The position numbers were made by a program, and so were the translations under genes. Source: Gracilimonas mengyeensis (lineage in GTDB: Bacteria > Bacteroidota > Rhodothermia > Balneolales > Balneolaceae). Taken from it: DNA of 64,000 nt. This document shows positions 42,654 through 59,420 of the stretch, piece after piece. The stretch's first letter is position 1, and each line of letters opens with the position of its first letter. The stretch covers positions 1-64,000 of the forward strand of contig NZ_FXTP01000012.1 of the NCBI RefSeq assembly GCF_900182705.1, read 5' to 3'. The notes beneath the pieces were generated by a model. The model was not told the DNA's origin. It searched no databases and saw only the letters and a list, made by a program, of their open reading frames with translations.

Positions 42654-42897
42654 GATTAAAGATTAAAAGATGGAAGATTGATAAGCCCAGTATTTCGTCC
42701 GACCGCTTCGGGAAAAAGTCTAAAACGGCACAACGTTATAGCGGTCTGACGATTTTACTACCTCATATCCCTTCTAAGGCATCAGGAATAAAAAATCATC
42801 AGACGGCTACAAGCAGCATTTAGCGTACGAAAAGGAAAGCCAGCCGTCAGATGATGGACGGGGCTAATCTTAAATTTTAAATCTTTAATCTTGAATT
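42654..42897. repeat. Twin-hairpin element bounded by inverted AT-rich phrases
   Basis: Hairpin 1 has arms GTCCGACCGCT (42697-42707) and AGCGGTCTGAC (42740-42750), one mismatch, with a 32-nt loop. Hairpin 2 has arms ATCATCAGACGGCT (42795-42808) and AGCCGTCAGATGAT (42842-42855), one mismatch, with a 33-nt loop. All four arms are versions of one motif (RTCNGACSGCT). The phrase AGATTAAAGATTAAAAGATG (42654-42673) on the left has an inverted partner at 42865-42897, which runs into the last codons of the gene on the right. The element lies between convergent genes. Confidence 0.7.
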
Positions 42898-44972
42898 ATC
42901 TTTTCTTCCTTCGCCAGTTCTTCTAAAGGATAAGGCCCGTTAAAGATCGTTTTGATGATGATATCAATATCCATCCACAGCGAATAATTTTGCAGATAGT
43001 ACAGGGCAAAGCTTTCTACTTCCTCTTCTTGCTGAATGCGGTGACGGCTGATTTGTACCAAACCGGTAATCCCCTTCTCTGTCGGACCTTCCCTCTCCTC
43101 TTTGGATTCTGTAATTGGAGCTCCAACCAGGCTCAGCTTGCCTGATAACACATAACCCAGCAATCTCCACCGGTTTTTCCATTTATTTTTGGTGATATCG
43201 CTGTATAAATTAAAGCCGTCTACTTGTACCTGCCTTCTATTTCCAAACAATAGTGATGGCCATATCACAACCAAAACAGCAAGGTATATGGGCAGGGCTA
43301 TTCCGATATCAAATAATCGTTTCAGGCCTCTATTCAGTGGTTTAGAGTATTCAAATTCTACTTCAACCAAAGGGATCGCTTCCAGGTATTCCACATGTGA
43401 TTTCCCAAGAATGAAATCCATTGAATCGGGGATCAGTTTAAACACCACATCCTTTTTCTGAAGACTGGCAATCTCTTTCAACATCTGTTTATAGCTGATG
43501 GAATTCAGGGCAAAGAACACCTGATCGATATTGTAGGCCTTTACCAAATCCTGCAACTGGCTCAAACTTCCCAACCGGCTCTTACCGTTATCTTTACTGC
43601 TTACCCCCACGCTGCCCACCACTTCATAGCTCCAGTCGGGCCGGGAATGGATTTTACTAATGATCTCCGAGGTCTGGTCTCCATCCCCCACAATAAGCAC
43701 GCGCGGACTTCGGATTTTGCCCCGGTTGTATTCTCCGGAACTGCTCCGGTTTACCATAATCAGTTTGTAGGCCACGAAAAATATCACCCCAAAAATAAAA
43801 CCGAGAATAAGCCCCAACCTGGAATAGGCCAGATTACGAACGAAAAAGGTGATAACAACCAACCCGGTATAAGTGATGGTAAGAGCTTTTAAGGTTGTAG
43901 AGATAGAGTCCCGCTTTTGACGAAACATCCCCAACAAGCTGCCTGAAAACAAAAACAATAGCGAGCTCAGAGCGTTGATCCAAAGGTGCTTCATGCCCTC
44001 AGGATTCAGTATCCACTCGCCCAGCAGCCCGTAACGCACCACATACCCCACGGCCACCGACAGGTTTAACACAAGCAGATCGATGAGCACCATCCTGATC
44101 TTTTTGAAATTGGATGAAATAAATGACATCCCCGTTTTCAGCCAGATAGCCAAATAAATGAGCACCCGGAAAAAGGTGCTGTACCGCGAGCTGAAGTGCT
44201 TATCGAAAAATTGGTAGAGCGCCTTGTTGAAAATACGGATGTAGCGAAGGTCTCCTTTCTTCGTGCTCTCACCCTTGTAATGGATGATGGAAGTGTCAGG
44301 CACATAATCGATGTGATAGTCCGTTTCCTGCACGCGATAGCAAAGGTCGATATCCTCGCCGTACATGAAGAAGCGCTCGTCGAAACCATCCAGTTTTTGC
44401 AGTAATTCAGTTCGCCAAAACATAAAAGAACCGGATAGTACGGGTACTTCTGAGGCTTCATCCTCGTGCAACCAACTTAGGTAATACCGGCCGAACAGCT
44501 TACTTTTTGGAAACAGAGCGTTCAGCCCAAACACTTTGGTGCAGGCCGTCCAGATATTGGGCACAGAGCGCCGGGACTCGGGGGCAAAGGTGCCATCGGG
44601 ATTTAGGATTTTACACCCCGCAGCCCCGCAATCAGGATTTTGCTGCATATGCTCAATCAGCACTTCCAGGGTATCCTCACTCACCAGGGTATCCGGGTTG
44701 ATGATAAGTGTGTACTCACCCTGTGCTTGACGAATGGCCTGGTTGTTGGCTTTAGCAAAGCCCACATTCTCCTGGTTGGCGATGTAGTTTACGTCCGGAT
44801 ATCGCTTTTTGAGGTAAGGGATGGAGTCATCACCGGAAGCATTATCTACCACAAATATCTCAAGCTCCAGCTGATGCCGGGCTTTGTCAAGCGAGTTAAG
44901 GAGGTTGGCTATGTATTCCTTAACCTTATAGTTAACAATAACTACGGAAATATGGGGCTTCGCGTTTTGCAC
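42885..44972 (-). CDS. GT2 glycosyltransferase fused to a phosphoglycosyltransferase-like membrane domain
   Basis: 695 residues. About 1-255 is a GT-A family 2 transferase (VVIVNYKVKEYIANLL, metal site INPDTLVSED, acceptor region MYGEDIDLCYR), of the rhamnosyltransferase-like kind. About 290-410 holds four membrane helices. About 420-530 is a Rossmann-like domain (VLIVGDGDQTSEII), and about 548-680 resembles the sugar-transferase domain of polyprenyl-phosphate sugar transferases (RGLKRLFDIGIAL, LSGKLSLVGAPI, ITGLVQISRH). The stretch that normally carries the KFRSM and SLDELPQ motifs is shortened and reads DITKNKWKNRWRLLGYV, so the catalytic Asp-Glu pair is missing. The last codons overlap repeat DNA. 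A role in surface glycan assembly is likely. Confidence 0.85.
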   Translation of the reverse strand: MQNAKPHISVVIVNYKVKEYIANLLNSLDKARHQLELEIFVVDNASGDDSIPYLKKRYPDVNYIANQENVGFAKANNQAIRQAQGEYTLIINPDTLVSEDTLEVLIEHMQQNPDCGAAGCKILNPDGTFAPESRRSVPNIWTACTKVFGLNALFPKSKLFGRYYLSWLHEDEASEVPVLSGSFMFWRTELLQKLDGFDERFFMYGEDIDLCYRVQETDYHIDYVPDTSIIHYKGESTKKGDLRYIRIFNKALYQFFDKHFSSRYSTFFRVLIYLAIWLKTGMSFISSNFKKIRMVLIDLLVLNLSVAVGYVVRYGLLGEWILNPEGMKHLWINALSSLLFLFSGSLLGMFRQKRDSISTTLKALTITYTGLVVITFFVRNLAYSRLGLILGFIFGVIFFVAYKLIMVNRSSSGEYNRGKIRSPRVLIVGDGDQTSEIISKIHSRPDWSYEVVGSVGVSSKDNGKSRLGSLSQLQDLVKAYNIDQVFFALNSISYKQMLKEIASLQKKDVVFKLIPDSMDFILGKSHVEYLEAIPLVEVEFEYSKPLNRGLKRLFDIGIALPIYLAVLVVIWPSLLFGNRRQVQVDGFNLYSDITKNKWKNRWRLLGYVLSGKLSLVGAPITESKEEREGPTEKGITGLVQISRHRIQQEEEVESFALYYLQNYSLWMDIDIIIKTIFNGPYPLEELAKEEKIIQD

Positions 44973-45033: not shown

Positions 45034-47355
45034 TCATCGGATGATCACCACTTTACCCAAGCCCCGTTCGCCACCACTACTTTCATAGGCCACCACATAA
45101 TACACGCCGCTTCCCAGCTGATTTCCGTTGTAATCGTGGCCGTCCCAGCTTATGCGCCCTCCGGTAGCTTCGAGCTCATTCACTACTACGCCATCCACAC
45201 CTAAAATCTTCACCTGGGTGGATCCGGATAAGCCCTCAATCACTATTTGATTGTGACGGCTGTACTGGAAAGGATTGGGGAACACCTTCAGGTTATCCAT
45301 GCTTTTTACGGGTTTGAGGGGAACATCCTGCAAGCTAACTAGTCCCTGGTCTGTAGCAACAAACACCTGCCCTGTTTCACTGTTTATGGAAATGGACTCG
45401 ATGGTATTGGAAATCAAGTCACTGTTCTCGGTCGTGTAGCGAGCTTCAATGCGGCTTCCTTCGGCGTTTAACAGCCATAAACCCTGGCTTTGGCTACCTA
45501 TCCATTTCTGGTTGGCATCATTGACCGCAATGGCTGTTACATTCACATCCCGCAATAAATAGCGAGAGCTGGCCAGAGTGTCTTCATTGATTAACCATTG
45601 AGCCTCCCTTTGACTTGGACTACGCTCAATAAACTTTTCAGGAAAAACAAATTTTGCAATGCCCCGGCCGGTCCCAATCCAAATGTCACCACCTCTATCT
45701 TCAACAATAACATTTACTTTTTCATCCGGGAGCCTCCCATTGTTGGATGCAGAAGTTAGCTTTACGGATTGATCATCTTGTGCGGTTTCAGGATCGCCGG
45801 TATCCACCACCAGCAATCCCAAGCCTGCGTTGCCCTCACTTCTTAATGAAATCCATTTCTGATCATAGGAATCAACCAGCATATTAAAATAATGATCGCC
45901 TCCGGTATGACTTCTAAACGGGATCCATTCATCACTTCCCTCCAACTTCACATTTAGCGGAAATTCAGACCAGAAACTGGTGGCCCAAACGTTACCATCA
46001 GAGTCAATATCAATACCGGGAACTACTATATAATCAGGATCAATACCTATTCCCGATAGTGCAGAGTTATTTTCGTTATACACCGTTATATCATTAGTGG
46101 ATTTCTGATGCTCCACGATGCCACCGCCCCAGGTACCAATGTAGTAGGCCGAATCGGATTGCCCCACTGCAAAAGCATTGCTTACCTGGTTATCCCTCAA
46201 TACCTCATTGGTGTTACGGTTAAAATTATGCCAAACATCATCCTCAAAAATATAATAACCGCGGACCGGGTTAAGCGGATCAGTTTGCGGGAAGGCACTT
46301 GAAGAGGTGGCCAGCAAGGTCTGTCCATCTACCAACATGTTGTTAAAGAAATTCAGGTAAGGACCCGTTGGTTGAAACTTTTGCGGGGTTGCATCCCTGC
46401 TTTCAAGTTTTGAGAACCCCTCATTGGTAGTACCCAGGTAAATGGTTTCACCCTGGAAAAATATCCCGTTAATAGTACTTCCCAACTGAAGCCTGATAGT
46501 CTCTTGCCCGCCTGTATCCTGCGCCAGTACAATGGTATTCCCATCGGATATTGCCAGTTGCGAACCGTCAGAGTTTCTGCCCAACACTTCAATATTTTCA
46601 CTATTCAGTATGTCACTAAGTGCCCATTCCGAATCCTGCAGGGTAAACACACTGTCGCTGGATAACGCAAAAACCCCTTGATTTACTTTCACAATTTGTT
46701 CCACCAAGCTGGCCCGAAGTCCATCATCGGTACTGTAACTTTGCCAGCTATCATTCTCTACCAAATTATCGCTTAGCGCCCCGATGGCAACGCCCTGTTC
46801 CGTGGCTGCGTAGATGGTATCCTGGACGATATCAAAATCTAAAACGGCCGTTCCTGCATTAAAATCACCTAAACGAAGAAAACTGTTCTCTACAAAAAGC
46901 TCGTCCATATCATACACCACAATGCCGAAACTGGTAGCCACATACAGGCTCCCTTCATAGATGATGAACTTATTTACCGAGCGGGAGGTAAACCGGGAAA
47001 CGCGGTTAATATCACGCACCCTTTCGATATTGGGGACGTCGTTAGGTTCAATCACGTCAATCATGCCATCAATATATCCGGCAAATAACCGGTTGCCGGC
47101 TTCATCATATATAAGGGCTCTTGGATTAGAGCGGTAGAGCCCGTCCATGGTAGAAATCTGGGCACGGATTTCTTCATCCTCCACCATATAAATCCCTCCC
47201 AGGGTCGCCCCATAAACCACACCCCCTGCAAAAGCCATGTCCGTTATAGTTGAATGGGAAGGATAGACCTTCCACTCCCCGAGTTCCTGAGCCTGCAAAC
47301 CGGCGGTTCCAACAACCAAACCCATCAACAAGCATAATAATTTGTTCCGCATCAT
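45034..47355 (-). CDS. porZ: PorZ-like type IX secretion component (beta-propeller protein with sorting domain)
   Basis: 773 residues from the ATG at 47355, chosen because it gives a signal peptide (MMRNKLLCLLMGLVVGTAGLQAQ); the frame is open to 47445. The mature start GEWKVYPSHSTITDMAFAGG is the hallmark opening of PorZ. It is followed by two seven-bladed-type propellers of Reg_prop-like repeats (GTGRGIAKFVFP, WIGSQSQGLWLL) and a C-terminal sorting domain (about 690-773, NLKVFPNPFQYSRHNQIVIE ... GKVVIIR). In Porphyromonas PorZ sits on the cell surface and helps attach secreted cargo to anionic lipopolysaccharide. Together with the sorting-domain protein at 22670 it shows that the organism has type IX secretion. 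Monocistronic. Confidence 0.87.
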   Translation of the reverse strand: MMRNKLLCLLMGLVVGTAGLQAQELGEWKVYPSHSTITDMAFAGGVVYGATLGGIYMVEDEEIRAQISTMDGLYRSNPRALIYDEAGNRLFAGYIDGMIDVIEPNDVPNIERVRDINRVSRFTSRSVNKFIIYEGSLYVATSFGIVVYDMDELFVENSFLRLGDFNAGTAVLDFDIVQDTIYAATEQGVAIGALSDNLVENDSWQSYSTDDGLRASLVEQIVKVNQGVFALSSDSVFTLQDSEWALSDILNSENIEVLGRNSDGSQLAISDGNTIVLAQDTGGQETIRLQLGSTINGIFFQGETIYLGTTNEGFSKLESRDATPQKFQPTGPYLNFFNNMLVDGQTLLATSSSAFPQTDPLNPVRGYYIFEDDVWHNFNRNTNEVLRDNQVSNAFAVGQSDSAYYIGTWGGGIVEHQKSTNDITVYNENNSALSGIGIDPDYIVVPGIDIDSDGNVWATSFWSEFPLNVKLEGSDEWIPFRSHTGGDHYFNMLVDSYDQKWISLRSEGNAGLGLLVVDTGDPETAQDDQSVKLTSASNNGRLPDEKVNVIVEDRGGDIWIGTGRGIAKFVFPEKFIERSPSQREAQWLINEDTLASSRYLLRDVNVTAIAVNDANQKWIGSQSQGLWLLNAEGSRIEARYTTENSDLISNTIESISINSETGQVFVATDQGLVSLQDVPLKPVKSMDNLKVFPNPFQYSRHNQIVIEGLSGSTQVKILGVDGVVVNELEATGGRISWDGHDYNGNQLGSGVYYVVAYESSGGERGLGKVVIIR

Positions 47356-47488
47356 GAATGATTTATTTAAATGATCAAGCAATAATAAAATCTCTATTCT
47401 ACCATACAACCAATATAACCGATGTTTATTTGGCAAATAAAACAAAAGGTAATCATTATCCTTTTCAAATTTGATGTTTGATTGGAAT

Positions 47489-47954: not shown

Positions 47955-50426
47955 ATGGCCAACCCTGACGCAGCCTCATCCACTGATTTCTTTTCCAAAC
48001 TTTCAGAAACCAAGCAGCACATTATTGCGCTGCTCATCTTATTTCTGATTCCTTTTTTTCTGTTTACCGCCACCACTATTGGCGGAAAGGAATTTCAACG
48101 CCATGATACTACCCAATGGCGTGCCGGGGCTGAGTCAGTCATTGACTACCGCGAGACCTACGATAAAGAACCCCTGTGGGTAAATAACATGTTTGGCGGC
48201 ATGCCTGCATTTGTGGTATCTGCCCAAAAACAAGTTCCCCATCTCGACGATATAAAATCATGGTTCAGTGGCATCTATCCGGCTTTTCAATACTGGGTGT
48301 TATTTTCGGGGATGTACTTTTTGCTGGTAATTATGGGCTTCCGGCCATTGGTTTCCGCCTTTGGCAGTTTGATGATGGGGCTCACCACCTATTTGCCCAT
48401 TATCATCGCAGCGGGGCATAACACCAAATTTATTACGCTAACGTACATTCCATGGGTTATTGCCGGCTACTGGCTGCTAACCCGACGGGATAAGAAACTA
48501 CCTGGTCTGTTGTTATTTGCGGTAGCCATGACCTTGAACCTCCGCGCGGGTCATCCACAAATAACCTATTATTTTTTCTATCTGCTTGGTTTTCTGTGGA
48601 TTTTCGATACCTGGCAGGCAATCAAAAAGCAAGAACTCAAAGACTGGGGCATTGTCACCGGTTTACTGGCTTTGGGTGCCATACTTGGTTTAATGGGACA
48701 TGCCGAGCGTTTCCTCGCCTTACAGGAATATGCCCAATACAGCCTTCGTGGCGGATCTGCTCTGGATGATTCTTCCGGCCTGACTTCGAGTTATGCATTT
48801 GCCTGGTCGCAAGGCATCAAAGAAACATGGACCCTGTTAGTGCCCAATTACTTTGGCGGAGCTTCCCCGGAATATTGGGGACCAAAATCCTTTACCTCCG
48901 GCCCGCATTACCTTGGGGCACTCAGTCTGCCTTTTATATTGCTTGCACTCTTTCGTGAACGCAGTAAAGTAATGTATGTGTTTTTTGTGGTCGGCACGCT
49001 TGGGATGATGTTTTCCTGGGGACAGCATTTCCCGATTTTAAATGAATTTGCTTTCGACTACATCCCCTACTTTGATAAATTCCGTGCGCCGGAGACCTGG
49101 CTTACGCTCACAGTATTTTGCTATACCGTAGTAAGTGTGTATGGACTTAGCTGGTTTGTTGATTTTGTCCGGGAAAAGAAATCTACCCTTAAGAAATTGT
49201 ATGTACCACTGGGCATCAGTGCTGCAGTACTGGTCTTGTTGTTTGTACAACTTAACTCATCTGATTACACTCGTCCCAACGAGGTACAACAGATTGCCAA
49301 CCAGATTGCCCAACAAAACCAGGTGAATCCCAATAATCCTCAGGTACAACAACGTGCTCAACAATATGTAAACAGCCGTATGGTGCCCGAGCGGGAAGAT
49401 AAAGCCAAAGCCGACCTGCTGCGCTTTGCTATCATTCTGGCATTAGGCACCGGTTTGATTTACTTGGCCTTCGCACGTAAAATCCCTCTTTCGCTGGCTT
49501 TGTTTGGTTTTATTTTGATTACCGGCTACGACCTTTTAAGCGTGGATAAACGATACATACCTGAAAATGTAATTGTAGCTGGGAACGTAAGTCCCGAAAA
49601 AACCCTGGAATCACAACGGCGTGAAATAGACACGTACATTCAAGATAATATTTCTGAAAATACCGAATACCCTTACCGCGTCTTTCCGCTGCTTGATAAT
49701 CCTTACAGTAACGCTACTCCCTCTTATTTCTATCCGCAAATTGGTGGGTATACCGGAGCCAAACTAAGTATCGTTCAGGATGTAATGTATAACGGTGGGC
49801 CGCTGGATGTGCAAAGCCAGAATTTCAATCCCCGGCTGCTGGACTTGTTAAATGTGAAGTATGTCACCTACTCGCAAGGACTCCCGCTGCCCGGCTTCCG
49901 TCCTGTGTTTAACGGCAATCAAGGTGTGGTGTACGAAAACCAAAATGTTCTGCCCAAAGCGTTCTTTGTGGATTCAGTGATTACTACCACCGATCCGCGT
50001 GAGGCTTTCAATTACCTGAAACCCAATCGACTGAATTTTGCCCAAACTGCCGTAGTTGAAACATCAGAAGATCTTGCTTCTGCCACAGATACAACTTCAT
50101 CTGTCACGGTAACCAATTATACTGGCCCTGAGATGACATTGGAAGTGAGCCGCAGCCAGCCCGGCTTCCTGGTGCTAAGTGAAATTTATTACCCTGCTGG
50201 CTGGATAGCTGAACTGAACGGGGAAGAGATTCAGATCTACAAAACCAATTACCTGCTACGCGGACTTGAAATCCCTGCCGGCGACTATACTTTAGAACTC
50301 CGGTTTGAACCACAGAGTTGGAGCACCGGTGTTACCTTGGCCTGGATTTCATTAGCAATACAAATTTTACTGGCCGGAGCCCTGGTTTTTATGGGCTTCA
50401 AAAACCGCCAAGACGGTGGCTCGTAA
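47955..50426 (+). CDS. YfhO family membrane protein (GT-C fold-like)
   Basis: 823 residues with about twelve or thirteen membrane helices and a large periplasmic C-terminal domain (about 560-790). NNMFGGMPAFVVSA near the start is the conserved YfhO motif, and PAGWIAELNGEEIQIYKTNY near the end is its conserved C-terminal segment. In Gram-positive bacteria YfhO takes part in adding sugars to cell-envelope polymers; here a comparable transferase role with a polyprenyl-phosphate-sugar donor is inferred. Its end overlaps the next gene by 11 bp, which ties it to the glycan operon. Confidence 0.87.
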   Translation: MANPDAASSTDFFSKLSETKQHIIALLILFLIPFFLFTATTIGGKEFQRHDTTQWRAGAESVIDYRETYDKEPLWVNNMFGGMPAFVVSAQKQVPHLDDIKSWFSGIYPAFQYWVLFSGMYFLLVIMGFRPLVSAFGSLMMGLTTYLPIIIAAGHNTKFITLTYIPWVIAGYWLLTRRDKKLPGLLLFAVAMTLNLRAGHPQITYYFFYLLGFLWIFDTWQAIKKQELKDWGIVTGLLALGAILGLMGHAERFLALQEYAQYSLRGGSALDDSSGLTSSYAFAWSQGIKETWTLLVPNYFGGASPEYWGPKSFTSGPHYLGALSLPFILLALFRERSKVMYVFFVVGTLGMMFSWGQHFPILNEFAFDYIPYFDKFRAPETWLTLTVFCYTVVSVYGLSWFVDFVREKKSTLKKLYVPLGISAAVLVLLFVQLNSSDYTRPNEVQQIANQIAQQNQVNPNNPQVQQRAQQYVNSRMVPEREDKAKADLLRFAIILALGTGLIYLAFARKIPLSLALFGFILITGYDLLSVDKRYIPENVIVAGNVSPEKTLESQRREIDTYIQDNISENTEYPYRVFPLLDNPYSNATPSYFYPQIGGYTGAKLSIVQDVMYNGGPLDVQSQNFNPRLLDLLNVKYVTYSQGLPLPGFRPVFNGNQGVVYENQNVLPKAFFVDSVITTTDPREAFNYLKPNRLNFAQTAVVETSEDLASATDTTSSVTVTNYTGPEMTLEVSRSQPGFLVLSEIYYPAGWIAELNGEEIQIYKTNYLLRGLEIPAGDYTLELRFEPQSWSTGVTLAWISLAIQILLAGALVFMGFKNRQDGGS

Positions 50427-51714
50427 AGTCCTGCTGATTGCTTACTACTGGCCTCCCAGCGGGGGAGCAGGGGTACAGCGGTGGGTCAAGTTTTGCAAGT
50501 ACCTGCCAGAGTTTGGCATTGAGCCTGTGGTGCTTACGGTAGCCAACGGTACTTATCCCATGCTGGATGAATCTTTGGCTGATGAGCTCCCTGCAGACCT
50601 CGAAGTACATCAAGCCAAAAGCATTGAGCCCTACACCATTTTTGGCAAATTGACCGGAAAAACTGACAAGCAGGTATCTACTCCATCCACTGCCTTTTCT
50701 ACCGATGGAGGATGGATGCAGAAACTGGGGGTTTGGGTGCGCTCGAACTTTTTTATCCCAGATGCCCGTATCGGTTGGATCCCCGGGGCATTTTCCAAAG
50801 CGAAAGATATTATCACCAACCAAAAAATTGATACAGTAATTACCACCGGCCCGCCCAATTCTACCCACGTGATTGGGAAAAAACTCAAAAACTGGCGTCC
50901 GGGTGTTCAGTGGATTATGGATATGCGTGATCCCTGGTCCCAAATTTTCTATAATGAAACGCTGCCCCGTACTTCCCTGGCTCAGCACATTGACGAAAAC
51001 ATGGAGCTGAAAGCCCTAAAAACTGCCGATGATGTGATCGTTGTTTCAAATAGCATGGCAGAGTTGGAAAAGAACATTTACAAGCGGTATTACCATGTAA
51101 TTTCCAATGGTTTCGATCATGAGGATTTCCCTGAATCACACAAGAAAAACACAAAGGAAAGCAATACGTTTACGATCCGGTATGTGGGAAGCATGACGGA
51201 ACCGGCCATTCCCCATCAGTTTTTTAAGGCACTCGCATCCCTCAACAATCAGCAAAAAGCCATGCTGAATATTGAATTCTTTGGCTCTTATAATTCTAAA
51301 GTCCATAAGGCCATTGCAGATAACGAGCTTGAAGCACTGATTTCTTTCAAAGGATACGTCCCTCATCAGGAGGCTACTGAAGCCATGCAATCAGCTAATT
51401 TGCTATTGCTTGTGATTCCCGATACCAAAGACAACGAGTTGATTTTAACCGGCAAGCTGTTTGATTATCTTGCAGCTCAGACGCCTATTTTATTCATTGG
51501 TCCCAAGCAAGGGGATGCAGCCCATATTATTCGCAACTATAAACTGGGACGCTGTTTTGATTATGCAGAGTTTGAAGCGATGGGTGATTTTCTGGAAGGT
51601 GCATTGCATGGCAACGACATCCCCTATAAAAAGTGGAAAGGAGATTTTAAATCACACCCTTATTCCAGATATCAGCTGACCAGCCGACTCGCCCAGATTT
51701 TAGATCAGCCCTGA
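50416..51714 (+). CDS. GT4-type glycosyltransferase
   Basis: 432 residues with a GTG start at 50416, 11 bp inside the end of the YfhO gene. The GT-B fold is shown by the N-terminal AYYWPPSGGAGVQRWVKFCK (glycine-rich acceptor loop) and the C-terminal TIRYVGSMTEP, SFKGYVPHQEATEAMQSANL and GKLFDYLAAQTPILFIGPKQ, where the donor-binding Glu-x7-Glu is replaced by a Lys-Leu-type end as in several GT4 subgroups. It transfers a sugar from a nucleotide donor in the cytoplasm during surface-glycan assembly. Confidence 0.88.
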   Translation: MARKVLLIAYYWPPSGGAGVQRWVKFCKYLPEFGIEPVVLTVANGTYPMLDESLADELPADLEVHQAKSIEPYTIFGKLTGKTDKQVSTPSTAFSTDGGWMQKLGVWVRSNFFIPDARIGWIPGAFSKAKDIITNQKIDTVITTGPPNSTHVIGKKLKNWRPGVQWIMDMRDPWSQIFYNETLPRTSLAQHIDENMELKALKTADDVIVVSNSMAELEKNIYKRYYHVISNGFDHEDFPESHKKNTKESNTFTIRYVGSMTEPAIPHQFFKALASLNNQQKAMLNIEFFGSYNSKVHKAIADNELEALISFKGYVPHQEATEAMQSANLLLLVIPDTKDNELILTGKLFDYLAAQTPILFIGPKQGDAAHIIRNYKLGRCFDYAEFEAMGDFLEGALHGNDIPYKKWKGDFKSHPYSRYQLTSRLAQILDQP

Positions 51715-51719
51715 ACAAC

Positions 51720-53015
51720 GTGAGTTACTATTTTGAATACATATTGGAAACTTTTGACCGCCTTTATGAAAGGCCGGAAGGCATACGTATTGGCTACTCA
51801 AAACAGGCTGATATTCAACTGGTACAGCATTCTGAAGCTTTTTTCCAATCTAAAAAAGCTCAACCCGAAACACTCATTTGGAAAGTATGGGAAGGCACTA
51901 GGATTCCTTTTCTATTTGCTGACGATGACTCCGAACCCATTATTTCTTCAACAGAGGGAGGCCTTCGTATAAATTACGACCTTATTGGCAACGCCTTCTT
52001 TTTTCTGAGCGGGTGGCAAGAATTTTACTCGGATGAGCGCGACTCACACGGTCGATATCCTTATTCTGAAAGCCTGCAACATCACCATAATTTTACTTCC
52101 CTGCCCGTTGTTAATTACTATTTTGACATCTTGAAAACAGCCCTTGAAGAGCTGCATGGAGCTGAGCTTCCTCGCAAGCTTTGGCCTAATAGTCCCTTGG
52201 CTGTTTTTCTTTCGCATGATATCGACAAAATTAAAAGTGGCTGGTTGGAAGAGGCTTTTACCGCCCTGAAACAAGGAAGAATACTGCCAGGGCTGAAGTA
52301 TGCGGCAACCAAAGTATCCGGGAAAGACCCATGGGATAATGTGCTTGAGATATTGCAATTGGAGAAAGAGCTTGGTGTTTCCAGTACCTGGTTTTTCATC
52401 CCCGAGCAAGGTAATGGTAATGCCGATTATCCTTTACGCCAAATTGAACCTTTTGCAGAACCCATTCTTAATCAAAAAGGAGAACTTGCCCTGCATGGAA
52501 GTTTATATAGTGCTGCAAGTGGTAAAAAACTCCTGCAGGAAAAGGAGATGTTTCCACGAAGCATTACCGGCAACCGGTTTCATTATCTTAAGTTTGAGCC
52601 AAAGAAATTTACGGAAGTCCTGGAAAAATCTAAGCTTGATTATGACTCCTCCCTGGGATTCGCCGAACACGTTGGATTTCGTAATGGATTTTGTTTTCCC
52701 TTTCAGCCCTATCATATTTCTCAAAAAAAACCGGCAGACTTTTTTGAATTTCCACTTATGGTCATGGATGCTACGCTGCGCCAAAAAAATTACATGGGAG
52801 ATCATCCCGAAAGGATGAAGGAAGTGAACAAAGTTATTAAGGAGGTGAAAAAGTTTAGCGGTATGCTGAGTATTCTCTGGCATAATAACTATTTCTCTGA
52901 GTGTAAATATGCCGGCTGGGGAGAAATGTATATTAACCTGGTTAAAAGCCTTCAAAAAGAAGGTGTTCAGTTTTTCACGGGACAACAAATGATGGAGTTA
53001 CTTAATGAGTCCTAA
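51720..53015 (+). CDS. Polysaccharide deacetylase-like protein (divergent NodB fold)
   Basis: 431 residues with a GTG start at 51720, 5 bp after the previous stop. VFLSHDIDKIKSG (His166, Asp167, Asp169) fits the first metal/catalytic motif of NodB-type deacetylases, and ELALHGSLYSAASGKKLLQE (His in LHG) fits the second. The N-terminal 150 residues form a separate domain seen ahead of many such proteins in surface-polysaccharide clusters. It would remove acetyl groups from a sugar or act as a related carbohydrate hydrolase. There is no signal peptide, so it should act in the cytoplasm on lipid-linked intermediates. It overlaps the next gene by 11 bp. Confidence 0.75.
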   Translation: MSYYFEYILETFDRLYERPEGIRIGYSKQADIQLVQHSEAFFQSKKAQPETLIWKVWEGTRIPFLFADDDSEPIISSTEGGLRINYDLIGNAFFFLSGWQEFYSDERDSHGRYPYSESLQHHHNFTSLPVVNYYFDILKTALEELHGAELPRKLWPNSPLAVFLSHDIDKIKSGWLEEAFTALKQGRILPGLKYAATKVSGKDPWDNVLEILQLEKELGVSSTWFFIPEQGNGNADYPLRQIEPFAEPILNQKGELALHGSLYSAASGKKLLQEKEMFPRSITGNRFHYLKFEPKKFTEVLEKSKLDYDSSLGFAEHVGFRNGFCFPFQPYHISQKKPADFFEFPLMVMDATLRQKNYMGDHPERMKEVNKVIKEVKKFSGMLSILWHNNYFSECKYAGWGEMYINLVKSLQKEGVQFFTGQQMMELLNES

Positions 53016-54144
53016 AAAAGTGGCTATTACGCAAAACCGTTTTCAACGTGGCGGTCGCATGCAAGTAACAATTCAAATGGTTAAGGTACTCAATAAAAGA
53101 GGCATCACCCCTGATCTGGTTTGTTTCAAAAGTAACATCTCAAAAAAGGATATAAACGAAGCATACGGAGCAGACATCTCATTCAACTTCCGGGAAATTT
53201 TTGTGGATCCTAAAATCCCATTTGAATGGAATATTTTGCTATTCAACCTGATAGCATCTTTTTATCTAAAGTCATACGATCTGGTGATCAATAGCAATAA
53301 CACCAGTTTTTTGCTTTCTGACACCTTGAACGTCCTTAGTTATGTGCATTTTCCCCGGAAAAAGAGAAATATCATTCCACATAAAGACATCCATTTCCCG
53401 GAAGGAGCAAAAAAAAGTGTATGGGATTTCAAAAGTGACTTCCTGAAAGCGGCTCATTTTCTATACCGTTTTGATAACTCTATTCCCAAAAATGATTTAC
53501 AGGTTGCCAATTCGGATTTCACAAAAAAAACATTGACTGAAATCTATAATTTGCCGCCCGAAAAGATCGAGGTCATTTACCCACCGGTAAATATCTCGTC
53601 AGCAATAAATCAGGCGAATAAGAAAAAACAAGTTGTAAGCCTTGGACGCTTTTCGAGAGATAAACGCCAACTGGAACAGATAAAAATTGCCCGAAAGCTC
53701 CCGGAGCTGGACTTCCATCTTTATGGTTTTGTGAATGCACGGGATTACTATCAAACCTTAGAGCACTATATTCACGAGCACCAAATTCAAAATGTTTATC
53801 TGCATCCGGATGCCCCTTTTTCTGAAATCGAAAAGGCTTTGTCTGAGTCTGCCTTTTTTATTCACAGCCTTCGTAACGAGCCTTTTGGCATCACCAGCGT
53901 GCAGGCTATACAGCATGGTTGTGTTCCGGTAGTACATAATTCGGGCGGACAGATGGAGATTGTCTCCGAGCCCAAATTGCGATATAATAATGCTAAAGAG
54001 GCCATAGAGATTCTTAGAAAATTAACTACTGAACAAACCGTCGAATTGCAGCGATTACGTGATATATTGAAAAGTGGACTTCAGGCTTATTCAGCCGAAG
54101 CTTTTGACCGGCAGTTTGAGACCTTGCTGGAGGCTAAACTATGA
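53005..54144 (+). CDS. GT4-type glycosyltransferase
   Basis: 379 residues of GT-B fold. VVSLGRFSRDKRQLEQIKIA is the donor-side beta-strand motif. FIHSLRNEPFGITSVQAIQH carries the conserved Glu residues for nucleotide-sugar binding, and GCVPVVHNSGGQMEIV completes the motif. It transfers a sugar with retention of configuration in the cytoplasm. The start overlaps the deacetylase-like gene by 11 bp and the end overlaps the next gene by 4 bp, the tightest part of the operon. Confidence 0.9.
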   Translation: MSPKKVAITQNRFQRGGRMQVTIQMVKVLNKRGITPDLVCFKSNISKKDINEAYGADISFNFREIFVDPKIPFEWNILLFNLIASFYLKSYDLVINSNNTSFLLSDTLNVLSYVHFPRKKRNIIPHKDIHFPEGAKKSVWDFKSDFLKAAHFLYRFDNSIPKNDLQVANSDFTKKTLTEIYNLPPEKIEVIYPPVNISSAINQANKKKQVVSLGRFSRDKRQLEQIKIARKLPELDFHLYGFVNARDYYQTLEHYIHEHQIQNVYLHPDAPFSEIEKALSESAFFIHSLRNEPFGITSVQAIQHGCVPVVHNSGGQMEIVSEPKLRYNNAKEAIEILRKLTTEQTVELQRLRDILKSGLQAYSAEAFDRQFETLLEAKL

Positions 54145-54974
54145 CCCTGCTCGAGATCCTTAAAAGTTTTTATGAAGCTAACAAAGAACATTATGAGTTG
54201 CTTAAGAAGCAAAGTAATGTAGCGCATTTGGAACACCTTGAAGCTTCTGAAATTTACAGCAAGGTGCATAGCAAGGCAGGACCTGTTTTTGTGCTTTCTA
54301 CTGGCAGATGCGGTACAAAATTACTTACACAAATACTGACAGAGAATAAGCAACTGGAAGTTCATCACGAACCTTATCCAACTTTTACCTGGCATTGCAA
54401 GTATGCTTTTGAGAACCATGCCAACAAGCCGGAAACAGTCCGTATGATGTTTGATGTGGCTCGATATGAATTGATTCGGGATGCGTATTTGAATAAGAAA
54501 ACCTATGTTGAAACCAACAACCGCATTACCTTTTTTGCACATCAGCTGGCCGAATTATATCCACATGCGCGGTTTGTACATTTGATCCGTGAGCCGGTGT
54601 CTTTTGTAAAAAGCGGATTGTCACGCAACTGGTACTCCGGCAAAGAAATATACGATGAAGGACGCATCACTGACACAGAGAACCCGGATACCTGGGGCAG
54701 TTACAGTCAGGCCGAAAAAATTGCCTGGCTCTGGAAAGCCACCAATTCCTTTATCGAAGATTTCAAAAAAGAACAGGAAGTATTTACCCTCTATTCCAGG
54801 CAACTATTTTCTGATCCGACAGCAGTAAATGAGCTTTTGGAGTTTCTGGAGCTCCCACATCTTACTTCCACCACGCTACAAAAACATCAGGCCACACCCG
54901 TTAATAAGAATAAAAAAGACCTGACCTTAAGCGACCCTCAAATTCAATCCATCAAAGATATTACAGAAACATAG
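54141..54974 (+). CDS. Sulfotransferase family protein 1
   Basis: 277 residues. PVFVLSTGRCGTKLLTQIL (49-66) is the 5'-phosphosulfate-binding loop for the PAPS donor and ARFVHLIREPVSFVKSGL (143-160) is the 3'-phosphate-binding site (Arg150, Ser158). It should transfer sulfate to a sugar hydroxyl of the glycan under construction. No signal or membrane helix is seen. It overlaps the upstream glycosyltransferase by 4 bp and is followed 12 bp later by a second, different sulfotransferase. Confidence 0.85.
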   Translation: MTLLEILKSFYEANKEHYELLKKQSNVAHLEHLEASEIYSKVHSKAGPVFVLSTGRCGTKLLTQILTENKQLEVHHEPYPTFTWHCKYAFENHANKPETVRMMFDVARYELIRDAYLNKKTYVETNNRITFFAHQLAELYPHARFVHLIREPVSFVKSGLSRNWYSGKEIYDEGRITDTENPDTWGSYSQAEKIAWLWKATNSFIEDFKKEQEVFTLYSRQLFSDPTAVNELLEFLELPHLTSTTLQKHQATPVNKNKKDLTLSDPQIQSIKDITET

Positions 54975-54986
54975 CACTCCATTACC

Positions 54987-55931
54987 ATGAATATATTTGT
55001 AACCGGATTACGACGTTCTGGTACTACTATTTTATTTGATATACTTTCAGAGCAGGCCAAAATCAAAGCTTTTTATGAGCCACTGAGCGCTGCCTATGAA
55101 ACTATTGGGGGTGGTAGTGGGGAGAAGGATTTTGATTTAAATGAACGAATCCGTGTGTATCGCGAAGAAGTCATTGAGAAAAAGGACCTTTCGGTTGAAC
55201 CCGACCATTTTAATTATGGTGCTCCAAAAAATTATCACCTTGAGCTGTCCTCCAAAAAGTTTGACGATCACCATAAAGAGTACCTGGAGTACCTGATCGA
55301 ATCAACCGATCAAACGCTGCTCAAGTTTGTACGCGCTACTTTTTTAATGCCCTACCTGAACGACATTGCACCGGACTCTTATCTGATCCACATCCAAAAA
55401 AATCCACTGCGTTTTGCTACTTCCCATATTTTTGGAATCCGGTTTAAAAGGCAGAGCTTTCGGGGTAAGGTTGCGATGATATTGGATTACCTGAAACCCG
55501 GAAAAGGGCTACAATTTGAAAACACTGATCCCGATTATTTCTTTAGTCTAATAGATGGCTTCAACTCCTGGAGCCAAGAAAACCTGGTTCATTCTTATTT
55601 GGATGAAACAGGACGCTCGCATTTAAAACAAAAACCGGCTTACTACAAACTACTCTTGCTATGGAAAGAGTGGAACGAGAAGATGGTTACTGACGGGAGA
55701 AAGCTATTTGGTGACCGATTCATTTCAATTGAGCATGAACAGCTCTGCCGAAATACAAAGGCAAAATTAGCTGAGCTTTCTGACTTTTTAGATATTGAAT
55801 TTGATGACAAACTCATGGATTGGGCCCTAACCAACCTCCGGAGACCACGCCCCATTTACGCTCAAAACGATCCCAGATGGGAACAGGCCCTAAAAGAGCT
55901 GGACATGGACCTTAGATATTTAGAAAAATAG
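54987..55931 (+). CDS. Sulfotransferase family protein 2
   Basis: 314 residues. MNIFVTGLRRSGTTILFDIL is the phosphosulfate-binding loop right at the N-terminus. DSYLIHIQKNPLRFATSHI fills the position of the 3'-phosphate site, with the usual Arg replaced by Lys-Asn. It is clearly different from its neighbours at 54141 and 56924, so the three are not tandem duplicates. A different acceptor position on the glycan is likely. It is followed by a 102-bp gap, the largest within this operon. Confidence 0.83.
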   Translation: MNIFVTGLRRSGTTILFDILSEQAKIKAFYEPLSAAYETIGGGSGEKDFDLNERIRVYREEVIEKKDLSVEPDHFNYGAPKNYHLELSSKKFDDHHKEYLEYLIESTDQTLLKFVRATFLMPYLNDIAPDSYLIHIQKNPLRFATSHIFGIRFKRQSFRGKVAMILDYLKPGKGLQFENTDPDYFFSLIDGFNSWSQENLVHSYLDETGRSHLKQKPAYYKLLLLWKEWNEKMVTDGRKLFGDRFISIEHEQLCRNTKAKLAELSDFLDIEFDDKLMDWALTNLRRPRPIYAQNDPRWEQALKELDMDLRYLEK

Positions 55932-56033
55932 GAGCATACATTTTTAGAAATTAAAAAAACAAAGCGTTGATACTTTTGTCTACTCGTAAATAACTTACAA
56001 GTAGTAACCTCAACTATTTTAATCCTTTTATAT

Positions 56034-56918
56034 ATGGGTCTACTTGAATCATTTAACAGATGGGAAAAAATTTTATGGAGTTTAAAGACTCATGAGAGAA
56101 GGTTTGAGCTCATTGAAAATAATATTGAAAATTTAGTTAATGCTAAATACAAAGCACTAAAGAAGAACGTTGATCATAACCTGGCTTCAAAAGAATATTC
56201 CATCTATTCTCAAAATGGAGAGGATGGTATTTTACTTTACATTTTCAGTGTAATTGGAGTAGAGAATCGACGATTTATAGAGTTTGGCATTGGAGATGGC
56301 CAACAATGCAACAGTGCAAACCTGATTCTAAATTTTGGATGGAAAGGGTTGATGATTGAAGGCAACCAAACAAAAGCCGAAATGGCTGAGCTCTTCTATT
56401 CAAATACTAGCAAAACAAAACAGAATGAAGTTATCATTTTAAATGAATTCATTACAAAGGAGAACATTAATGAATTATTTGAATCAGCTAACAGCACTGG
56501 AGAGATAGATCTCCTTTCAATTGATATTGATGGTAATGATTACTGGGTTTTTGAGGCCATAAAGAATGTGGATCCACGCGTTATTGTAATTGAGTATAAT
56601 GCCTCCTTTGGACCTGATAAATCTGTAACTGTAGAGTATGATCCATCCTTTTCAAGATTCAAAAAACATCCTTCCGGCTGGTATCATGGGGCATCACTTA
56701 AAGCTCTAACCAAGCTTGCTAATGATAAAGGCTATGAATTGATTGGCTGTGATTCTTGTGGTGTTAATGCTTTTTTTGTGAAAAGAGAGCTCCTGAACGA
56801 TAAATTGGAAAAAATCAGCCCTGAGGAAGCCTACTATAAAGAAAAGAAGAGATCAAAAACTCATACACCTTCTGAACAATTTGATTTAATTAAGCACCTT
56901 CCATTGATTAAAGTATAA
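56034..56918 (+). CDS. FkbM-like SAM-dependent methyltransferase
   Basis: 294 residues. SIYSQNGEDGILLYIFSVIG followed by FIEFGIGDGQQCNSANL (SAM-binding motif I, 81-97) and IDLLSIDIDGNDYWVFEAI is the pattern of FkbM-type methyltransferases that O-methylate sugars in bacterial glycans. The conserved WYHGASLKALTKLANDKGYE near the C-terminus supports it. The gene is visibly more AT-rich than its neighbours and follows the only sizeable gap in the operon, so it may have been acquired separately. Confidence 0.78.
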   Translation: MGLLESFNRWEKILWSLKTHERRFELIENNIENLVNAKYKALKKNVDHNLASKEYSIYSQNGEDGILLYIFSVIGVENRRFIEFGIGDGQQCNSANLILNFGWKGLMIEGNQTKAEMAELFYSNTSKTKQNEVIILNEFITKENINELFESANSTGEIDLLSIDIDGNDYWVFEAIKNVDPRVIVIEYNASFGPDKSVTVEYDPSFSRFKKHPSGWYHGASLKALTKLANDKGYELIGCDSCGVNAFFVKRELLNDKLEKISPEEAYYKEKKRSKTHTPSEQFDLIKHLPLIKV

Positions 56919-56923
56919 TCGGT

Positions 56924-57931
56924 TTGATTCAGCAACCAATTTTCATATTAGGACTCCATAAATCAGGGACAACCTTACTAAGAAATTTATTAGACGGGCA
57001 TCCCGATCTCGGAGTGATACCCTTTGAGTCTCACACCTTTCAATTGCTCAATTATTGGGTAGATCTTGAATATCGCAGACAACGACCCAATCAAACCATT
57101 ACGCCCTCAGACCTGGAAAGTGATATCAATGATTTTATAGCATCTATTAACTCAAATAATAACACCTATGCTGATGCCCATATTGAGGGCAAAATTGATG
57201 AAAAAAGATTTGAGGATAGTTTTTCTGTACCAAGAGAAGGTGCTAAAGAGCCAAAAAAATTAATCGTGAATTACTTCAATGCAATTTATAAGTCGCTTTA
57301 CAGTTCGGCTCCGGGTGAAAGCATACGATTTGTAGAAAAATCTGTTGAAAACGCAGAATTTGCTGCTTTTATACATAAGCTATTTCCGGAAGTAAAATTT
57401 ATTAGAATAGTTAGAAACCCTTACTCCAATATTGTTTCTTTTAGAAAATTTCAGATAAATAATCACGCCTTTCCACTTATGCACCGGCTCCTTGCAACGA
57501 TGGAAAAGAGTTATCATCAGTTGTATAAGAATAAACTTTTATTCACGCCTGATACTTATAAAATCATTCGCTACGAAGACCTGGTTTCAAAACCAAAAGA
57601 AACCATGGAACAAATAGCTCAATTCCTGGGAATATCATTTGAACCCAGTCTTTTAGAACCAACGGTTTTGGGCAAACCCTGGAAAGGAAACAGCATGAGT
57701 AATAGAAAATTTGAAGGCATAAGTTCTTCCCGTTTACATCAGTGGAAAAAAGAAATTTTGCCCATGGAGGTCTATTATATCAATAAATTATTTCCTTTTA
57801 TGATCAAAGATTTTGGCTACAAATATATAAAAGCTTATAAAAAGGGAGCTTTTTTAAAACCTGCCCCAAAAGAAAACCCGGCCCGCTATGTTGTAAACAG
57901 GTTGTATAGAATATACCTTCGCCATATTTAA
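56924..57931 (+). CDS. Sulfotransferase family protein 3
   Basis: 335 residues. The start is TTG at 56924, 5 bp after the previous stop; no ATG gives the conserved N-terminus. PIFILGLHKSGTTLLRNLL is the phosphosulfate loop and VKFIRIVRNPYSNIVSFRKF is the 3'-phosphate site (Arg164, Ser168). The end carries a conserved Trp-rich stretch (KPWKGNSMSNRKFEG) seen in glycan sulfotransferases. Third of three sulfotransferase-like genes in the operon, each in a different subfamily by eye. Confidence 0.87.
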   Translation: MIQQPIFILGLHKSGTTLLRNLLDGHPDLGVIPFESHTFQLLNYWVDLEYRRQRPNQTITPSDLESDINDFIASINSNNNTYADAHIEGKIDEKRFEDSFSVPREGAKEPKKLIVNYFNAIYKSLYSSAPGESIRFVEKSVENAEFAAFIHKLFPEVKFIRIVRNPYSNIVSFRKFQINNHAFPLMHRLLATMEKSYHQLYKNKLLFTPDTYKIIRYEDLVSKPKETMEQIAQFLGISFEPSLLEPTVLGKPWKGNSMSNRKFEGISSSRLHQWKKEILPMEVYYINKLFPFMIKDFGYKYIKAYKKGAFLKPAPKENPARYVVNRLYRIYLRHI

Positions 57932-57947
57932 CTCACCAACCCATCCC

Positions 57948-59420
57948 ATGGGAATCATTAAAAAACAAAGCATTACCAATTCTATCATCACCTATATAGG
58001 TATTGGTTTGGGATTTATTACTACTATCTATCTCTATCCCAACTTCCTTGAAGCTAATGAATACGGTCTTACACGGCTATTGCTTTCTGTTTCCTTTATT
58101 TTTACCCAGTTTGCCCACTTGGGCATGAAGAATACCGCTATCCGCTTTTTCCCCTATTTTGAAAATGATGAGAAGCAGCATAACGGATTTCTGTTCCTGA
58201 CCCTCACTATACCCTTAGCTGGCTTTTTGTTTTTCCTGGGCGTGCTCTTTTTATTTGATGACCTTCTGCTCTCCTATTATGATAGATCTTCACTTTTTGA
58301 ATCTTACTACTGGTTTCTGATTCCCATAGTATTTGGTCAACTCTACTTCGAGGTGCTTAACAGCTACGTACGTGCCCGGCTGCATTCTGTTCCCGGTTCG
58401 GTGATTAGCGAAATTATATTACGTCTGTTCGCAATTGTTCTTCTCTTGGCTTTTTGGTTTAATTGGCTTTCTTTCCGGGAATTCATGATTGGCTTTGTGA
58501 TTTCCTATATCATACAACCCGTTTTGCTATTACTCTTTTTGTTTTTCAAGGGAGAGTTATTCTTGAAACCCAACTTTGCTTACCTCAAAACATCCCTGGT
58601 AAAACGAATGGCTAATTATGGGCTATTTGCTCTTTTAGGGGGCATGACTACCCTGATCGTAAATAATATCGATATCATCATGCTGGGATCGCTATCCGGA
58701 CTTACAGAAACCGGTATTTATGCCATTGCTTTTTATATTGGCAGCGTAATTATTGTGCCACAGCGATCTATTGGAAAAATTGCACCCTCTTTGGTAGCAA
58801 AATACATCAAAGAAAAAAAAATGGGTGAGGTTGAAAAAATCTACAAAAGCTCATCCATCAACCAGATGATCCCCGGATTTTTAATCTTTGTCGGTGTGGT
58901 GGCCAACATTCATAACCTGAACGATATACTGCCAGCGGAGTATGCATCTGCTTCTTCTGTTATCGTGGTCATTGGTATCTCTAAGCTCATTGATATGTCG
59001 GCAGGTATCAATGGTTCAATCATTCTAAACTCCAAGTATTACCGGTTTGATTTGATTTCGATGCTATTCCTGATTTTATTTTCTGTCGGGTTGAATTACT
59101 GGCTTATTCCACTCCTTGGTATTACCGGGGCCGCAATTGCTACAGCGGCCTCTCTCTTCCTGTACAATTTGATTAAAGGTATTTATGTCTGGATTAAATT
59201 CAGGATGCAACCACTAAGTTCCAAAATGCTGATCGTAATTTTGTTAAGCCTCGCCATACTATGGGGAAGCCTGCAAATAGATCGTATTGGTAACCTCTAC
59301 TTTGATATTGCCTTGCGGTCTTTGGTGATAGCTGTTGTATACAGCGCGGGTATTTTAGCATTTAACATCTCCGACGAAGTAAACAAGCTGTGGGCAGATT
59401 TCAGAAATAAAATCCACTAA
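57948..59420 (+). CDS. Polysaccharide flippase (Wzx/MATE-like, oligosaccharide exporter)
   Basis: 490 residues with about fourteen membrane helices. IGIGLGFITTIYLYPNFLEA near the start and NYGLFALLGGMTTLIVNNID in the middle are typical of the polysaccharide_synt/RfbX flippases that turn lipid-linked repeat units across the inner membrane. It lies 16 bp after the third sulfotransferase and is the last glycan gene before hisS. Its presence shows that the product of the cluster is exported. Confidence 0.9.
   Translation: MGIIKKQSITNSIITYIGIGLGFITTIYLYPNFLEANEYGLTRLLLSVSFIFTQFAHLGMKNTAIRFFPYFENDEKQHNGFLFLTLTIPLAGFLFFLGVLFLFDDLLLSYYDRSSLFESYYWFLIPIVFGQLYFEVLNSYVRARLHSVPGSVISEIILRLFAIVLLLAFWFNWLSFREFMIGFVISYIIQPVLLLLFLFFKGELFLKPNFAYLKTSLVKRMANYGLFALLGGMTTLIVNNIDIIMLGSLSGLTETGIYAIAFYIGSVIIVPQRSIGKIAPSLVAKYIKEKKMGEVEKIYKSSSINQMIPGFLIFVGVVANIHNLNDILPAEYASASSVIVVIGISKLIDMSAGINGSIILNSKYYRFDLISMLFLILFSVGLNYWLIPLLGITGAAIATAASLFLYNLIKGIYVWIKFRMQPLSSKMLIVILLSLAILWGSLQIDRIGNLYFDIALRSLVIAVVYSAGILAFNISDEVNKLWADFRNKIH

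Follow-up and report, generated by a model that had tools for sequence, protein, structure and literature searches.

The gene analysed here lies in a 64,000-nucleotide stretch of Gracilimonas mengyeensis DNA (contig NZ_FXTP01000012.1, positions 1 to 64,000; hereafter the window), and it encodes a family 2 glycosyltransferase (GT2) joined to the body of a large monotopic phosphoglycosyltransferase (Lg-PGT) that lacks its catalytic residues. Judged from sequence, the phosphoglycosyltransferase (PGT) activity of this tail has almost certainly been lost, and the GT2 domain is very probably active. The best reading, whose chances we put at about even, is that the protein is an active glycosyltransferase of the second step, which a pseudo-Lg-PGT docks onto the PGT that initiates the glycan. 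An earlier interpretation made from the letters alone (the sequence-only reading) had reported the missing Asp-Glu pair, and had offered three roles for the protein, namely a regulator, a scaffold for the glycan machinery, or an enzyme of different chemistry.

The gene occupies 42885..44972 on the minus strand, on which all of its domains lie (GTG start at 44972, stop at 42885, no internal stops), and encodes 695 amino acids. The GT2 domain (residues ~6-265; 44178..44957) matches PF00535 with 81.9 bits (Pfam cut-off 23.3) and the GT2 structure 6p61 with Z 22.7, and its residues N92, P93 and D94, E206, D207 and D209, and H231 are invariant in the 36 rows of alignment A2. It is followed by a bundle of four helices in the AlphaFold2 (AF2) models (residues 288-420; 43713..44111), which is presumably a transmembrane (TM) bundle given its match to Lg-PGTs, and by a Rossmann-like CoA_binding_3 domain of unknown function (DUF) with strands and helices in the models (residues ~421-519; 43416..43712; PF13727, 49.8 bits in Pfam). 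The hairpin FILGKSHVEY (520-529; 43386..43415; strands 520-522 and 527-529) may, by its position, be equated with the hairpin through which the DUF of WbaP dimerises. The PGT remnant comprises a re-entrant membrane helix at 545-576 with KRLFD at 551-555 (43245..43340), recognised in the AF2 model and the tail alignment; a shortened stretch at 577-598 from which the KFRSM segment is missing (43179..43244), WbaP having a ~55-residue insertion relative to the tail profile; N600-R601 (43170..43175), which replace Asp-Glu in alignments to canonical Lg-PGTs and WbaP; SLVGAPI at 614-620 (43113..43133), the aligned equivalent of SLVGPRP with its Arg lost; and a conserved C-terminal PGT segment at 634-671 (42960..43073), running from GITGLVQ (634-640) to YYLQNYSLWMDIDI (658-671). 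Together with RGLKRLFDIG at residues 548-557, these motifs place the family frame that the sequence-only reading had recognised in the C-terminal part. The match to the Bac_transf model PF02397 reaches 38.6 bits and covers only profile positions 97-175 of 179, and the tail scores 150.3 (cut-off 295.55) and 133.3 (cut-off 410.75) bits against the EPS_sugtrans and WcaJ models (TIGR03025/TIGR03023), both below the cut-off. The tail thus has the TM bundle, the CoA_binding_3 DUF and, in the predicted model, the PGT fold of an Lg-PGT. The fusion to a degenerate membrane domain described earlier is therefore real and had been understated, as the four-helix TM bundle, the DUF and the PGT domain are all fused to the GT2 domain.

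The loss of the catalytic residues extends well beyond the window. A total of 112 distinct long members, the window included, were collected (at least 530 amino acids, with the profile reached to position 515 or beyond); 12 with a missing cutting motif or an odd tail length were kept out of the alignment, which left 100 tails for joint alignment with 57 canonical Lg-PGTs. The canonical set was obtained by similarity to a live Lg-PGT (>150 bits), with 7 of the 57 rows found by the pattern VG[PA]RP, so that its selection favours intact enzymes; one canonical fragment of 166 residues was dropped. A KFRSM-like motif or VGPRP was found in none of the 112 long members, and the Asp-Glu dyad, present in all 57 canonical enzymes, in none of the 100 tails, in agreement with the loss originally reported. 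In the dyad columns of the tails the commonest pair is NR (22 rows), while the Asp is kept in two rows and the Glu in one. Every canonical row carries the Lys of KFRSM, the Asp, the Glu, the Pro and the VGPRP Arg, whereas the Lys is found in none of the tails and an Arg at the VGPRP Arg column in 6. The KRxFD motif begins with Lys in 87 tails and Arg in 10, and ends with Asp in 88 and Glu in 10. From its last residue to the dyad, the spacing has a median of 84 residues in the canonical enzymes (81-106, n=57) versus 30 in the tails (16-57, n=100), and is 44 in the window. The shortening noticed earlier is thus borne out with one refinement: the helix of SLDELPQ can still be aligned, with both catalytic residues replaced, and what is missing is the preceding segment with KFRSM. 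Nor does the pair reappear elsewhere in the region, as the letters DE stand between KRxFD and VG in only 2 of the 100 tails (L020 and L155; L, G and C numbers denote loci, genomes and contigs), in unlike contexts, and the 100 share no conserved acidic pair at this site or close to it. Strings of the form DE.P in three of the 112 long members (L117, L130 and L147) were considered as dyads and rejected, as their positions fall within the DUF or in the linker ahead of the re-entrant helix. Two further members of the 112, L031 and L034, end before the PGT remnant and have no remnant at all.

By these sequence comparisons, the catalytic loss is old and common to a large clade across several phyla. 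A scan of genome contigs turned up long relatives in Balneolota, Calditrichota, Marinimicrobia, Ignavibacteriota and Bacteroidota. In the same scan the window most resembled named Balneolaceae and Balneolia genomes, and its family (f1) is accordingly presumed to be Balneolaceae. When 394 genomes from the phylum of the window were searched with a profile, 317 matched at 1e-30, in some cases through GT2 alone, and 67 of the weaker phylum-wide matches were re-examined. In a tree of tails whose root is not known, 60 of the 100 pseudo tails (including the long row L073) and 38 of the 57 canonical rows, chosen for spread, were analysed together with 3 rows fused to a WecA-type PGT; one branch (SH-aLRT 99) separates all the pseudo tails from the canonical and WecA-fused rows. 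The loss is therefore shared by a clade, one of the checks that had been proposed for it.

Structure prediction, another of those checks, indicates that the tail is still of WbaP/PglC-like fold. The AF2 models have a mean pLDDT of 85.0 for the full protein and 82.1 for the tail, which was folded alone because the GT2 domain fills the VIA-align list of the full model with GT2 matches only. With VIA-align, the tail model matches WbaP 8t53 with Z 17.6 (353 residues, root mean square deviation 6.4) and PglC with Z 11.7 and 11.4 (137 and 136 residues), and the top Foldseek match is WbaP for both the full and the tail model. A profile of 28 tails, 22 of which match PF13727, finds WbaP chains at ~3e-34, and the alignment displays both the missing segment and the replaced dyad. 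Of 8 close pairs, only L103/L010 has an unsaturated synonymous divergence (dS); there the ratio of nonsynonymous (dN) to synonymous divergence is ~0.12 for the tail, 0.08 for the PGT remnant and 0.08 for GT2.

A second dead Lg-PGT was found in Calditrichota, where the neighbour of the GT2-pseudo-PGT gene encodes a polytopic WecA-type PGT (PF00953), not homologous to Lg-PGTs, fused to an Lg-PGT body. A match spanning this fusion was counted by eye in 34 of 40 genomes of the phylum (that of L020). The fusions lie at 3479-5992 in L020, 2595-5138 in L027 and 3521-6007 in L028, with 29 further distinct rows in L223-L254. None of the 35 rows (32 distinct) has KFRSM or DE; Tyr-Lys stands at the dyad in 34, and VGPR is kept in all 35. 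On the WecA side, the patterns DD, N..NLLDG and a GDSG-like string, which we take to be WecA motifs, occur in 35, 33 and 21 of the 35 rows, respectively. The three fused rows in the tree are placed inside its canonical part, and a GT2-pseudo-PGT profile match, often cut by the end of the stretch, stands beside the fusion in 31 of the 35 rows. The genomes of L020 and L027 encode live-looking PF02397 proteins elsewhere, so the loss in Calditrichota is not genome-wide. These fusions indicate that an Lg-PGT body has persisted beyond the loss of its own catalysis, with another PGT fused to it.

Short relatives of ~350-440 amino acids, mostly without the TM bundle and the PGT remnant, point to the part of the tail that is kept. 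Among the 49 with tails of at least 70 residues, a simple hydropathy count finds no TM segment in 44, and a hidden Markov model (HMM) of the pseudo-DUF matches 23 at E<0.01 but none of 62 reversed and 62 shuffled control sequences. A hairpin-like motif (e.g., IIGSN) occurs in the last 45 residues of 22 (shuffled mean 3.1, maximum 9 in 500), and its HMM alignment and position suggest that it may be the same hairpin as that of the WbaP DUF. In L188, L190, L198, L204, L044, L192 and others, the DUF remnant and a hairpin-like C terminus persist while the TM bundle and PGT remnant are gone. These short forms hint that what matters in the tail may be the DUF with its hairpin.

The genomic neighbourhood frequently includes an Lg-PGT. 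In 59 distinct well-flanked members (at least 2.9 kb on each side; a set picked for spread and not at random), a live Lg-PGT is in view in 28 loci, always on the same strand, and a dead one in 2; a DPM-like glycosyltransferase occurs in 29 (within 150 nt upstream in 25) and accA in 42. In L008 and, similarly, in several relatives, the order is porZ, GT2-pseudo-PGT, tgt (opposite strand), live Lg-PGT, DPM-like glycosyltransferase and accA. The genome of the window encodes three PF02397 proteins: one live Lg-PGT, which is surrounded on contig C5 by frames like tgt, DPM and accA, one small PGT, and the GT2-pseudo-PGT itself.

The next gene upstream in the window, 61 nt away, is porZ (45034..47445, minus strand; NF052228, 438.2 bits against a cut-off of 260), which encodes the protein that delivers anionic lipopolysaccharide (A-LPS) in the type IX secretion system (T9SS). 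Each of the 18 same-family loci in L089-L112 has PorZ upstream and in the same orientation, 4-82 nt away in 8 and 617-724 nt away in 10, and so do the window and L125. Across 98 genomes of the class, GT2 and PorZ occur together in 69 and are both absent in 27, with GT2 only in 2 (G058 and G159) and PorZ only in none; the cut-offs (E<=1e-50 for GT2, with or without tail, and E<=1e-40 for PorZ) were chosen after the lists had been viewed. Both are absent from the same-genus relative G061. The PorZ cut-off is passed by 2 of 11 genomes from loci outside that sample, and others have matches below it. Adjacency to PorZ in other families is mostly unseen since contigs end upstream of the gene: the seven other-family loci of the order in L088-L117 show at most 483 nt there, too little to judge it. 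The clear cases outside the family of the window are L012, with 5.9 kb upstream and no PorZ, and G112, with PorZ elsewhere on the same contig. On balance, a T9SS-glycan pathway of the PorZ/A-LPS type for the GT2-pseudo-PGT in the window's family is favoured slightly, and is proposed less firmly than the docking.

Several other features of these surroundings were also observed. The sequence preceding porZ in L008 (2689-2976), like that at the ends of contigs from several related loci, resembles an rRNA operon by eye, which may be why many contigs break off at this point. In G159 (C4:79209-80003), a same-genus GT2 part with no PorZ match sits in an open frame of 1939 codons and may be an assembly fault. 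Divergent from porZ in the window is a glycan cluster (47955-59420, plus strand) that includes a YfhO-type membrane protein, two GT1-type glycosyltransferases, three sulfotransferases, an FkbM methyltransferase and a polysaccharide-flippase-like protein. The frame at 51720-53015 (plus strand) gives a sub-cut-off match to the VimE deacetylase model (131 bits vs 440); VimE is the putative deacetylase acting on the T9SS linking sugar of P. gingivalis. F. psychrophilum FpgA was considered as the same gene and set aside, as the neighbour reported for it in PMC4293000 differs; no link is claimed.

Based on these observations, the tail would keep the GT2 domain beside the initiating PGT by means of the DUF, its hairpin (the dimer-making element of WbaP) and the TM bundle; the sugar linked to undecaprenyl diphosphate (Und-PP) by the initiating PGT would pass directly to the GT2 domain, which would add the second sugar; and, more weakly, in the family of the window the product may belong to the glycan that the T9SS uses for anchoring its cargo. 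Docking to a partner of the Lg-PGT type is about as likely as all other roles of the tail put together, and rests chiefly on the WecA swap, in which the body outlives its chemistry, and on the DUF remnants of the short forms. Among the three roles offered by the sequence-only reading, the scaffold is accordingly the best supported, by the fold that has been kept, the low dN/dS in one pair, the live Lg-PGT in 28 of 59 loci, the WecA swap and the short-form DUF remnants. More tentatively, with chances somewhat below even, the Lg-PGT body could be a reusable docking platform that has outlived catalysis at least twice, in the GT2 fusion and in the WecA-type fusion of Calditrichota. Two dead bodies, or a dead and a live one, would then pair through DUFs and hairpins into an initiation complex in which the second enzyme receives Und-PP-sugar from the first.

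The alternative that survives best, though rather unlikely, is that the tail is a mere membrane anchor, an Lg-PGT relic keeping GT2 at the bilayer without a specific partner. The re-entrant helix and TM bundle retained in long members are consistent with an anchor, as are the faster evolution of the tail than of GT2 and the loss of much of the tail in several lineages. However, most short forms have lost the TM segments and nearly half keep a DUF remnant, which is the opposite of what an anchor predicts, and the WecA fusion keeps a dead Lg-PGT despite having a membrane domain of its own.

The regulatory role offered earlier could act through the DUF, which might, by analogy with WbaP, sense uridine monophosphate (UMP) or UDP-sugars and control GT2, the PGT remnant being passive; as the main explanation this is improbable. 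The retention of the DUF in long forms (the PF13727 matches noted above) would fit, as would the UMP inhibition of WbaP and the nucleotide binding by its DUF (PMC10942596), but neither the WecA fusion nor the frequent sharing of a locus with a live Lg-PGT would be explained.

That the PGT domain still works as a PGT by means of another active site, built from migrated residues, is highly improbable. The tail does have conserved polar residues (K551, R552, Y659 and D668), but all 100 tails are without an acidic pair at the site, the segment with KFRSM is missing, the VGPRP Arg is rarely kept, and Y659 and D668 belong to the C-terminal segment, which has a match in canonical PGTs as well. The different chemistry once suggested is thus unsupported, and plausible chemistry resides in the GT2 domain. 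An artefact (a frameshift, a mis-assembly or a decaying gene in a single genome), for which no supporting point was found, is refuted by the homologues and can be dismissed, as the frame has no internal stops, 111 other distinct long members are in the same state, and dN/dS is low in the one usable pair.

A number of observations weigh against a docked second-step glycosyltransferase and its T9SS connection. Weakest here are the docking itself, which we infer, and the neighbourhoods, as roughly half of the well-flanked loci have no Lg-PGT in view: an Lg-PGT, live or dead, is in view in only 30 of the 59, and 12 of the 59 have none of Lg-PGT, DPM and accA. In the genome of the window the block is split, with porZ and the GT2-pseudo-PGT on contig C12 and the live Lg-PGT on C5. 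Between the window and two same-genus relatives the tail evolves faster than GT2 (dN 0.24 vs 0.09), and the hairpin is no more conserved than the DUF (Jensen-Shannon divergence 0.357 vs 0.348), so hairpin conservation was not used in support of docking. In the DUF search, 26 of the 49 short forms miss E<0.01, and 19 of these miss E<1. Two short forms from the window's family, L188 and L190, have lost the TM bundle and PGT remnant with porZ still upstream, and in G100, the genome of one of them, an Lg-PGT-like match lies 1.6 kb further on; most of the tail is therefore dispensable there. As for PorZ, the class table carries no phylogenetic correction, with 18 of its 27 double absences in genera g6 and g8 and 7 in family f11, and it counts GT2 with or without tail, so that it bears on the GT2 gene and not on the dead tail. 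At the same-family locus L181 (G159), PorZ is absent from the genome, and outside the class exceptions read by eye run both ways, e.g., PorZ with no more than a generic GT2 match in G012 and G049, and GT2 without PorZ in G007.

These findings bear on whether the enzymes of polyprenyl-linked glycan assembly act as physical complexes. The dead body of an initiating enzyme, fused to a later enzyme and kept across several phyla, points to a site of such a complex and to the part to cut, and the gene may supply an enzyme for a T9SS-related glycan in the family of the window. If the tail were named a polyprenyl glycosylphosphotransferase on the strength of its family matches, its activity would be misstated. 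Among the titles and abstract beginnings listed in literature searches, no pseudo-PGT, GT2-PGT fusion or WecA-WbaP fusion was described.

Compared with the large monotopic PGTs (WbaP 8t53; WcaJ/EPS_sugtrans), the GT2-pseudo-PGT is alike in the TM bundle, the CoA_binding_3 DUF, the re-entrant helix and the C-terminal PGT segment, but is without the KFRSM segment, the Asp-Glu pair and the VGPRP Arg, and bears a GT2 domain at its N-terminus. In PMC10942596, the WbaP dimer is reported to rest largely on the DUF hairpin, the DUF to be stabilised by uridine nucleotides, and the enzyme to be inhibited by UMP. The Bi-PGTs, a class named in the same paper, likewise join a functional domain to a monotopic PGT domain; the PGT half here is dead by sequence, so the protein is not bifunctional in that sense. 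With other GT2 enzymes (PF00535; 6p61, RmlT 8bz8 and WrtF 9omm) it shares the fold and the NPD and ED.D residues, while bearing the additional Lg-PGT tail. EpsZ, according to PMC12802240, is an Lg-PGT without the DUF hairpin that is activated by a partner, the response regulator EpsW; this is similarly an Lg-PGT whose active complex needs a second protein, but the partner proposed here is a dead Lg-PGT carrying a glycosyltransferase. Finally, in the A-LPS pathway of P. gingivalis, the first sugar appears to be added by WbaP and the second by GtfC (PMC7468200), which is the same order of steps as that proposed for the GT2-pseudo-PGT and is likewise tied to the T9SS, GtfC being likened to it by step order.

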